Source: Thermodesulfobacteriota bacterium
Lineage (GTDB): Bacteria; Desulfobacterota_D; UBA1144; Nemesobacterales; CSP1-2
DNA: 34,304 nucleotides
NCBI GenBank assembly: GCA_036397855.1
Contig: DASWID010000114.1
Coordinates: 1-34,304 of the forward strand
Reading direction: 5' to 3'
The position numbers were made by a program, and so were the translations under genes. The notes beneath the pieces were generated by a model. That model made no database searches. It was not told the origin of the DNA and saw nothing but the letters and a program-made list of their open reading frames with translations. This document shows, piece by piece, positions 26,325-28,838 of this stretch. The first letter of the stretch is position 1. Each line of letters begins with the position of its first letter.

Positions 26325-27611
26325 ATGATTGATCCTAAAATTTTGGAAGAAAATATAGAATTCGTTAAGACAAAATTGTCCGAAAGAGGCCAAGATATAG
26401 ACTTTGATATGATCGCCACGATTGATGAAGAGAGAAGAAGGGTTATCGGGGAAGTGGAAGAACTTGAGCATCAAAGAAATATCGGTTCAAAAAAGGTAGG
26501 AGAACTAAAGAGACAAGGTAGCAATGAAGAGGCAGCCGAAATTCAGAGTAGGTTAAAAGATATCTCTGAAAATATTAAAGAGCTAAACACAAAAAGAACC
26601 CAGATTGAAAATGATTTCAAACTGCTATTATTGAATATTCCCAACATTCCCCATAAATCCGTACCTATTGGTAATGACGAATCGGATAACCTGGAGATTA
26701 AACTTTGGGGGAAACCAAGAGAATTCGATTTTGTATTTAAAGATCATGTAACAATCGGTAAGAATCTGGATGTACTTGATTTAGAAAGGGCAGCAAAAAT
26801 TACAGGTTCGGGATTCGCCCTCTATAAGGGTCTCGGAGCGAGGATGGAGCGAGCACTCATAAACTTTATGATTGAGGAACATACTAACAAACATGGTTAC
26901 ACAGAAGTTCTTCCACCTTTCATGGCAAATCGTGATAGCTTTGTAGGAACTGGCAATCTGCCAAAGTTTGAATACGAACTTTTTAAAATCGATGATATGG
27001 ACATGTATCTGATTCCAACCGCAGAGGTCCCGGTTACAAATATCCACAGGGAAGAAATCCTTCTAGAGCAAGAGCTTCCAAAAAAATATGTTGCCTATAC
27101 ACCTTGTTTCAGAAAGGAAGCGGGCTCGTATGGAAAAGACGTGCATGGTATCATGAGACAACATCAGTTTAACAAGGTCGAACTCGTAAAATTTGTCCTT
27201 CCAGAAAGCTCCTATGATGAACTTGAAACCCTAACAAATGATGCAGCCCGTATCCTGGAGCTCCTTGAGCTACCGTACAGGGTAGTAGTCCTGTGCACAG
27301 GGGATATGGGATTCTCGTCTGCAAAAACATACGATCTAGAAGTGTGGGTTCCGAGCGAAAATAAATATAGAGAGATCTCCTCCTGTAGTAACTTTGAAGA
27401 CTTCCAAGCAAGGAGGGCAAATATTAGATACCGCACAAGCTCGGGTGGTAAACCTAAGTTTGTTCACACCCTAAACGGTTCAGGACTTGCAATAGGTAGA
27501 ACTGTTATTGCTATACTGGAAAACTATCAAAAAAGCGATGGATCCGTGCAAATACCAAAGCTACTGGTTCCCTATATGGGTGGCGTTAAGACAATTCCCC
27601 CCCCTAGTTGA
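26325..27611 (+). CDS. serS: Seryl-tRNA synthetase
   Basis: The 428-residue class II synthetase charges tRNA-Ser. Residues about 28-105 form the long antiparallel coiled-coil arm that holds the tRNA variable arm. Catalytic core: 'TAEVPVTN' (232-239), motif 2 'CFRKEAGSYGKDVHGIMRQH' (261-280) and motif 3 'GSGLAIGRTVIAILENYQ' near residue 390. Length is normal for the bacterial type. The ATG is preceded by a GGGATGA-like sequence. The gene stands 139 bp after archease. Its stop is followed after only a few bases by a 7-bp tandem repeat. Confidence 0.97.
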   Translation: MIDPKILEENIEFVKTKLSERGQDIDFDMIATIDEERRRVIGEVEELEHQRNIGSKKVGELKRQGSNEEAAEIQSRLKDISENIKELNTKRTQIENDFKLLLLNIPNIPHKSVPIGNDESDNLEIKLWGKPREFDFVFKDHVTIGKNLDVLDLERAAKITGSGFALYKGLGARMERALINFMIEEHTNKHGYTEVLPPFMANRDSFVGTGNLPKFEYELFKIDDMDMYLIPTAEVPVTNIHREEILLEQELPKKYVAYTPCFRKEAGSYGKDVHGIMRQHQFNKVELVKFVLPESSYDELETLTNDAARILELLELPYRVVVLCTGDMGFSSAKTYDLEVWVPSENKYREISSCSNFEDFQARRANIRYRTSSGGKPKFVHTLNGSGLAIGRTVIAILENYQKSDGSVQIPKLLVPYMGGVKTIPPPS

Positions 27612-27618
27612 TTTCCGG

Positions 27619-27688
27619 ATCTTGCATCGTGTATCCTGCATCGTGCATCATGTATCTTGCATCCTGCATTCTGTATCTTGTATTTTAT
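27619..27688. repeat. Heptanucleotide tandem repeat, about 10 units of ATCNTGY
   Basis: Ten consecutive 7-bp units run without gaps: ATCTTGC, ATCGTGT, ATCCTGC, ATCGTGC, ATCATGT, ATCTTGC, ATCCTGC, ATTCTGT, ATCTTGT and a decayed ATTTTAT. Position 4 is variable and position 7 is C or T. The array occupies nearly all of the space between serS and the flavoprotein gene. A unit of 7 cannot keep a reading frame below 21 bases, and no start or ribosome-binding site uses it. Confidence 0.93.
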
Positions 27689-27716: not shown

Positions 27717-28838
27717 ATGAAATCTTCACGCACAGATTTCGACGTCATAATAGTAGGTGCTGGACCGGCAGGGGGAATGTGTGCTTATGAACTGTCAAAA
27801 AATGACATCAGTGTGCTTATAATCGAAAACGAAAGGCTTCCCCGATATAAGACCTGCGCAGGCGGTCTGACAAAGAAGGCCTACGAGATCCTCCCGAAGG
27901 ATTTCCTGAACTTGGTTGAAAACGACACATACAGAGTAAATCTAACACTTAATCACAGATGGGGTTTTTCAAAAAATACATCATTCCCAATAGTAAAGAT
28001 GGTAATGAGAGATAAATTGGACTATTTCCTCATAAAAAAAGCAGAAGATTACGGAGCTCGTATATTTGATAAAACACGGATCGTGTCTTTGGCGGAGTTA
28101 CCAGACTGCGTTCATATAAGCACCGAAATGGGAAACTTTAAATCAAAGGTCATTGTAGGAGCAGATGGCATAACCGGATGTGTGGCACGTTTTCTTGGTT
28201 TGAGAAAAAACCCAGTGTGCGGAATCGCAATAGAAGGTGAAATAATTCCAAGATACGATTTATCGCAATTAAAAGGATTTAATGGTTCCCTCGACCTTGA
28301 TTTCAATGTGATCCCTAAGGGCTATGGCTGGATTTTCCCCAAGAAGGAACATTTATCAGTCGGAGTATTCACCACACTGCCAAAGATGAAAGATATCAAA
28401 CAGTATCTTTCGTCATATCTCAGCCAAAAGGGACTTGCTAATGGTTATCAAACTGCATCACTCAAGGGACATCAAATTCCCATTGGAGGCAAGAAACAAG
28501 AAATACTTAACTCGAAGAGAGGATTACTTATAGGGGATGCGGCAGGACTAGCCGACCCGATAACAGGCGAAGGCATATATTTTGCGCTCAGGAGCGGTCA
28601 AATAGCAGCAGACGTAATATGCAACTTCGCCCGTAATTGCAACCTAACCTTAGATGAATACACAAAAAAAGTAAACTCAGAAATCATTGACGATTTTAGA
28701 TACGCAGGTTACCTATCAATTTTACTCTATAATTTGAGCTTCTTTTCATACAACTTGGCAAGAATGATAGAAGGGATAAATGAGAGCTTCGTGAAAGTTA
28801 TAACCGGAGAAAAAACATATAAAGATCTATTCAAGTAA
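27717..28838 (+). CDS. Geranylgeranyl reductase-family FAD-dependent oxidoreductase
   Basis: The 373-residue flavoprotein starts with the FAD dinucleotide-binding 'DVIIVGAGPAGGMCAYELSK' (9-28, G14-A-G16-P-A-G19) and an acidic end of strand 2 at E37. Then come 'KTCAGGLTKKA' (45-55), the Cys-Gly-Gly segment of this family, and the FAD-ribityl motif 'LIGDAAGLADPITGEGIYFA' near residues 270-290. Relatives reduce geranylgeranyl chains of lipids, quinones or chlorophyll; in non-photosynthetic bacteria the substrate is usually unknown. No chlorophyll, carotenoid or menaquinone genes adjoin it, so the substrate stays open. Confidence 0.87.
   Translation: MKSSRTDFDVIIVGAGPAGGMCAYELSKNDISVLIIENERLPRYKTCAGGLTKKAYEILPKDFLNLVENDTYRVNLTLNHRWGFSKNTSFPIVKMVMRDKLDYFLIKKAEDYGARIFDKTRIVSLAELPDCVHISTEMGNFKSKVIVGADGITGCVARFLGLRKNPVCGIAIEGEIIPRYDLSQLKGFNGSLDLDFNVIPKGYGWIFPKKEHLSVGVFTTLPKMKDIKQYLSSYLSQKGLANGYQTASLKGHQIPIGGKKQEILNSKRGLLIGDAAGLADPITGEGIYFALRSGQIAADVICNFARNCNLTLDEYTKKVNSEIIDDFRYAGYLSILLYNLSFFSYNLARMIEGINESFVKVITGEKTYKDLFK

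Follow-up and report, generated by a model that had tools for sequence, protein, structure and literature searches.

What does a run of 7-bp units do in the short gap between two genes? The window (the whole stretch of 34,304 nucleotides that was analysed) raises this question immediately behind serS, where consecutive units of the form ATCNTGY take up most of the space before the next gene (Table 1). The genome to which the window belongs comprises 3.1 Mb in 195 contigs and most likely falls within the class Dadabacteria.

From serS to the next ORF (start 27717) the gap measures 105 bp, and positions 27619-27688 are occupied by the array plus a decayed unit, the nine-unit array itself lying 7 nt 3' of the serS stop and 35 nt 5' of the geranylgeranyl reductase family gene. 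The units read, in order, ATCTTGC, ATCGTGT, ATCCTGC, ATCGTGC, ATCATGT, ATCTTGC, ATCCTGC, ATTCTGT and ATCTTGT. A preliminary description of the window had counted ten of them; the array is real, but the tenth unit, ATTTTAT, carries two mismatches, so that nine is the fairer count. The array was detected by TRF at periods 7, 14 and 21. All six exact two-unit matches in the window overlap and fall within it, and with up to two mismatches allowed the window contained 22 two-unit matches versus 8.5 expected, a number reached in 0 of 100 shuffles.

Table 1. Features at the 3' end of serS (positions in the window)
Feature	Position	Strand	Basis
serS, serine--tRNA ligase; co-directional, upstream of the array	26325..27611 (stop 27609-27611)	+	TIGR00414, E 7.8e-169
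7-nt spacer from the serS stop codon to the array	27612..27618	+	sequence, ORF positions
ATCNTGY heptad array, nine units (eight perfect, one with one mismatch)	27619..27681	+	sequence, TRF
Decayed tenth unit ATTTTAT, two mismatches	27682..27688	+	sequence
Geranylgeranyl reductase family protein gene; co-directional, downstream	27717..28838	+	TIGR02032, E 1.4e-63

An Rfam scan of the window returned a 5S rRNA, distant from the array, as the sole match. The array was present at the serS 3' end in none of the 29 relatives' loci inspected; at this position the genome G005 has a different hairpin, as judged by eye. We also noted a run of eight C at 27597-27604, directly 5' of the serS stop codon.

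A dispersed family of degenerate heptads

Exact three-unit matches to ATCNTGY numbered 102 in the window's own genome, versus 0 for the same pattern read backwards. Twenty-six sequences from this genome (the window and 25 further stretches, 317 kb) contained 58 arrays with 380 units; because these stretches were picked, from the matches listed, for three perfect units, the shares of paired and solo arrays among them are not unbiased. Positions 1, 2, 3, 5 and 6 of the unit hold their letter at 92-98%. Position 4 is indeed free among all four bases (A27 C33 G26 T14 %), as had been described for the single array, and position 7, described as a pyrimidine, is mostly but not strictly one (C52 T25 A14 G8 %). 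ATCNTGY is hence a degenerate heptad, a 7-bp tandem unit with fixed and free positions and many copies per genome, and for the solo copy behind serS the safest statement is that it is a member of this dispersed family.

The fourth letters of neighbouring own-genome units agreed in 88 of 322 cases (0.273), versus 0.267 for random draws from the pool. Recent slippage of single units was therefore not the main source of these letters in this genome, in keeping with the initial suggestion that the array did not arise by simple slippage of one unit. In the set of loci from mixed phyla, neighbouring units agreed far more often (355/612), so that slippage of one unit type, or a genome-specific use of letters, is visible there. 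The flanks of the own-genome arrays (n = 80) had almost no sequence in common, which rules out a conserved element body. Four long solo arrays of the same genome (L049:268, L051:2834, L053:10207 and L053:11919) are all followed by CATTTGTCAATTG.

With both neighbouring genes called, 29 of 34 own-genome elements had co-directional genes on either side; of these 29, 22 overlapped the upstream stop or started no more than 43 nt from it. Among Dadabacteria more widely, 40 of 55 paired elements lay within 60 nt of the upstream stop, and the co-directional elements comprised 55 paired and 50 solo ones. The elements are thus intergenic, close to the upstream stop and preferentially located between co-directional genes. 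Nine of 40 own-genome elements fell mostly within a called ORF, several of these being short ORFs that run through the array. The array had been considered non-coding, and a coding role is ruled out for the family, given that the arrays are mostly intergenic and that a 7-bp unit does not keep the reading frame. Gene calling followed a simple longest-ORF rule, and ORFs consisting of more than 15% array were excluded from the context counts. The stretches of G003 and G006 (20 each) were chosen, among the matches listed, by three perfect units, and those of G005 from its own match list; stretches of G060, G061 and G064 were taken by contig number regardless of arrays, the later ones of G060 from long contigs.

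Order, anti-pairing and polarity of the paired arms

Arrays on opposite strands and no more than 60 bp apart always consisted of (RCANGAT)n followed by (ATCNTGN)n. In four Dadabacteria genomes we found 62 pairs in this order ('-+') and 0 in the other ('+-'), besides four same-strand neighbours; the 62, in which at least two orthologous elements of G003 and G006 are counted separately, have spacers of 2-29 bp. Elsewhere, mostly in two Nitrospirae, there were 37 '-+' and 0 '+-' pairs and two same-strand neighbours (seven named Dadabacteria loci were dropped from this set, duplicate pairs removed and G064 left out). Arm lengths were uncorrelated (rho -0.19, p 0.13), which speaks against a simple need for a long stem.

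Read outward from the centre, the two arms would pair perfectly if their free letters were equal. In Dadabacteria, the position-4 letters were equal in 31 of 272 comparisons, versus 0.263 when arms were swapped among elements, and 0 of 2000 such permutations gave a value as low; position 7 showed little deficit (84/272 versus a permuted 0.346, sd 0.026). Outside Dadabacteria, position 4 had a modest deficit (30/167 versus 0.261; 51 of 2000 permutations equally low) and position 7 a clearer one (35/167 versus 0.329; 1 of 2000).

This avoidance of pairing has a direction. At position 4 (read as ATCNTGN), A/G prevails in one arm and C/T in the other, and it is the A/G arm that lies 3' in the mRNA in 44 of 51 co-directional Dadabacteria pairs (p 1e-7) and in 16 of 19 pairs elsewhere (p 0.004), ties in purine content being set aside (2 and 1, respectively). 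In the mRNA sense, both arms accordingly tend to carry a purine at the free position, so that purine stands opposite purine. This polarity relative to the genes, observed separately in Dadabacteria and in a set made up mainly of Nitrospirae, points to RNA and makes the question testable.

The data do not support a general loading of mRNA with purines as the source of this polarity, since solo 3' arms are less purine-rich than paired ones: position 4 was a purine at a frequency of 0.75 in paired and 0.59 in solo 3' arms of Dadabacteria (p 0.0014; flanks 0.57), and of 0.74 and 0.28, respectively, elsewhere (p 3e-13; flanks 0.53). The serS array is a solo arm, of the 3' type in the mRNA sense, and its position-4 letters (TGCGATCCT) lack the purine bias; its partner arm has been lost or was never present. 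With purines at position 4, the 3' arm would contain ATG/GTG and the 5' arm AGGA.

Sense-strand folding of the 62 pairs gave a mean MFE z of -4.05, with values below -2 in 53 of them, a low folding energy being expected for any inverted repeat. When only the position-4 letters were shuffled within each element, stability rose above that of the real hairpin in 50 of 62 cases (p 4e-7). On the antisense strand the real hairpin was weaker in 50 of 62 cases too, implying that the distinction between RNA and DNA cannot be made from anti-pairing alone, but only from the polarity.

Hairpins were found in 15 of 88 co-directional gaps of 70-350 bp in the window's genome (G000), 21 of 104 in G003 and 16 of 85 in G006, versus 1, 2 and 1 after one shuffle each, and many had periodic arms with units of 7-10 bp. 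Other intergenic hairpin families with periodic arms had 7-bp units (GAAGTCA, ATTAGGA, TTTGGAA) or longer ones (CACAAAG-type, 8 bp; CACAGAG-type, 9 bp; CACGAAT-type, 10 bp); these were seen at loci L264, L266, L270, L272, L277, L279, L286, L300, L301, L063 and L306. By eye, many paired elements in L262-L301 (G003, G006) and L242-L261 (G005) also sit within outer inverted arms with a rhythm of about 10 bp, ACACGAATGA-like before the element and the complement after it, which makes them composite palindromes.

Turnover and distribution

G003 and G006 are about 92% identical over shared stretches (range 82-97%) and could be compared at orthologous elements. For 25 of 53 elements the sampled stretches held no orthologous region, one gap was very short and 9 were too divergent to score; the remaining 18 rows represent 11 distinct elements. 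At these, differences affected 21 of 361 fixed letters, 19 of 145 free letters (positions 4 and 7) and 152 of 1165 flanking positions (fixed versus flank, p 9e-5; fixed versus free, p 0.01; free versus flank, p 1.0). The fixed letters evolve at about half the rate of the flanks and the free letters at the flank rate. The proposal that ATC and TG are kept by selection is consistent with this constraint. That of a hypervariable locus is not borne out for the free letters, and the flank-like rate rules out hypermutation of the free letter.

Unit number, in turn, changes. Gaps in the orthologous array regions measured 14, 7, 7, 7 and 28 bp, and also 18, 5 and 1 bp, so that multiples of seven make up most of the indels, the 7-bp differences being seen between species, and several unit changes affected one arm only. 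In a single case (L278:2513 versus L288:10398), the orthologs were one heptad apart in either arm and the arms seemingly changed length together. With many arrays, placement at gene ends and copy numbers that vary between related genomes, the family is far from being one array of stable length without positional pattern.

At 6 of 27 elements with alignable orthologous gaps, the other genome had no ATCNTG array, and in at least three of these six, alignment and inspection by eye showed arrays or hairpins with different short units (AGAAGTC heptads, TTTGGAA-like heptads, an 8-mer type) in its place. Such replacement suggests that the hairpin build, and not the ATCNTGY sequence, is what is kept.

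The distribution of the motif is broad yet patchy. Three-unit matches occurred in 13 of 60 relatives, with the highest counts within the genome's own family, and in 24 of 198 genomes of the phylum of G060. A scan of 84,980 species gave at least 118 stretches; among the 80 listed were Nitrospirae, Deltaproteobacteria, Omnitrophota, Bacteroidota, PVC, WOR-3, Methanophagales archaea and others. Twelve genomes chosen from the listed taxa had 4 to 663 three-unit matches each (32 in the Methanophagales genome), and the reversed control pattern gave 0 matches in the same twelve. In three genomes of the phylum of G060 (G155, G195 and G249) we saw up to 19 matches to the reversed control and none to ATCNTGN, which suggests a further heptad family in which the order of the letters is mirrored. 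Phage carriage as the main vehicle is ruled out by the count of just 19 stretches with the motif in 2.9 million viral contigs.

Possible explanations and known heptad systems

Because of the place, order and polarity of the elements, the reading we prefer, with a probability of about one half, is that the serS array is a solo arm from a dispersed family whose paired members form intercistronic hairpins with mismatches built in. The full form is (RCANGAT)n, a spacer of 2-29 nt and (ATCNTGN)n, situated between co-directional genes shortly 3' of the upstream stop. Such a paired element is probably part of the transcript, where it would form an imperfect hairpin between the cistrons, transcription and folding in the cell both being deduced from sequence. 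The five fixed letters would make the arms complementary in any register, and the fourth letter is set, with a direction relative to the genes, against pairing (mostly purine versus purine in the mRNA). With mismatches at position 4, no more than about six consecutive base pairs would be perfect at once. Copies gain and drop whole 7-bp units. The element may serve in intercistronic mRNA processing, stability or termination.

A much bolder version, to which we give little credence, would have these hairpins represent a cross-domain class of intercistronic RNA: register-free heptad hairpins, oriented with the mRNA, in which every seventh base is a programmed purine-purine mismatch. Families such as ATCNTGY, GAAGTCA, TTTGGAA and 8- to 10-mers would interchange at orthologous gaps, and the object of selection would be the periodic mismatched helix, recognised by a conserved activity that binds or processes RNA.

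The elements might also act as DNA, as arrays of tandem half-sites bound on both strands by a nucleoid protein or global regulator. A protein with contact gaps would constrain the fixed letters and not the free ones; moreover, 21 bp comes close to two helical turns, solo arrays exist, and IHF/HU have been proposed to bind the paired sites of Geobacter metallireducens (PMC2700814). We nonetheless find such arrays unlikely, in that a DNA site offers no obvious reason for a polarity tied to the genes or for a systematic difference between arms, and a single protein would need to recognise the motif across Dadabacteria, Nitrospirae, Bacteroidetes and an archaeon. The polarity and the excess of arm mismatches over chance, together with the exclusive '-+' order and the different rates of fixed and free letters, are not predicted if the arrays are a neutral or selfish satellite, made of the most slippage-prone unit length, spread by copying and horizontal transfer and best tolerated behind stop codons. 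Nor are neighbouring own-genome units more alike than random ones, and we regard this satellite reading as doubtful. Its attraction is that most prokaryote genomes hold more heptanucleotides than any other long simple repeat, an abundance for which polymerase slippage is the explanation offered (Mrazek 2007, as cited in PMC4679880 and PMC4692102); that, among intergenic arrays other than the bait in the mixed-phyla loci, period 7 outnumbers period 8 by 31 to 6; and that 7-bp indels and a patchy presence are what we observed.

Termination by an intrinsic hairpin plus U-tract would fit the outermost 3' unit: in 20 of 45 sense-oriented elements it reads ATCATTT, ATCGTTT or ATCTTTT, with T making up 44-49% of the next three positions. 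It is to this extent that the terminator substitute envisaged in the preliminary description draws some weak support. However, the position-4 letters weaken the stems instead of strengthening them, convergent gaps are not favoured, and the next start codon is within 60 nt in 32 of the 45, which leaves little room for a new promoter; we consider an intrinsic terminator rather improbable. Lower still do we rate mobile palindromes of the REP/BIME kind, moved by a Y1 (RAYT/IS200-type) transposase. The arrays are dispersed, extragenic, palindromic and species-specific in abundance, the window's genome has 17 Y1_Tnp (PF01797) matches, and array and Y1_Tnp counts correlate across the 60 relatives (rho 0.36, p 0.004, without correction for kinship). 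Dependence on a RAYT is unsupported, though: five of seven array-bearing relatives outside the family have no Y1_Tnp match, five inspected Y1_Tnp loci are not flanked by arrays, and the dissimilar flanks of the own-genome arrays leave no conserved element body. Two Y1_Tnp genes among the 17 matches (G000:C19 and G000:C86) lie about 1 kb or less from an ATCNTGY array.

REP/BIME elements are not known to be composed of short tandem units. They are extragenic palindromes in dispersed positions, for which roles in chromosome organisation and termination have been suggested, and they are obligately tied to a transposase (PMC2817692), a link not found here.

Degenerate paired heptads have already been described in Xanthomonas and Geobacter, and it is the anti-pairing and the polarity that look new. 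The ATCNTGY family, its spread, its anti-pairing and its gene-tied polarity were not found in the literature searched, which lay outside most subscription journals, and the accessible text on the stem-loop families of PMC2267715 contained no mention of tandem units or heptamers. The over-representation of heptads in prokaryotes has been known since at least 2007 without an accepted reason, with slippage and G-quadruplexes as the two explanations encountered in print.

The closest likeness is to the intergenic (GGGANTN)n heptads of Xanthomonas, which, like the GGGGA(C/T)T heptads of Nostoc, have no known function. They lie on average 28 nt from the upstream and 160 nt from the downstream ORF, mostly between co-directional genes, and form 70 and 75 close opposite-strand pairs (PMC4692102). 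Shared with ATCNTGY are the fixed and free positions, the nearness to the upstream ORF, the co-directional genes, the inverted pairs and the length variation between related species. In contrast, GGGANTN is G-rich, hence the G-quadruplex explanation, whereas ATCNTGN has no run of three G and can form no quadruplex; a quadruplex-incapable family with the Xanthomonas architecture argues that the architecture, and not the quadruplex, is the common factor. Arm asymmetry and polarity are not reported in the available text on GGGANTN, which describes it for xanthomonads and a cyanobacterium (PMC4692102).

The TAACTGA heptads of the Beggiatoaceae resemble ATCNTGY in being intergenic and patchily spread over distant phyla. 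Their unit, unlike ATCNTGY, is invariant, and they are almost only direct repeats, mostly located just upstream of start codons (PMC4679880). Classes 1-3 of the 'global regulator binding sites' of G. metallireducens are degenerate tandem 7- to 9-mers in opposite-strand pairs at variable distance (PMC2700814), and opposite-strand pairing at variable distance is what our 62 pairs share with them. The motifs themselves differ from ATCNTGY, are putative IHF/HU sites and were described as unique to that genome (PMC2700814). The class 3 consensus, MTYCTGA, is a heptad that resembles the CTTCTGA arrays of L264.
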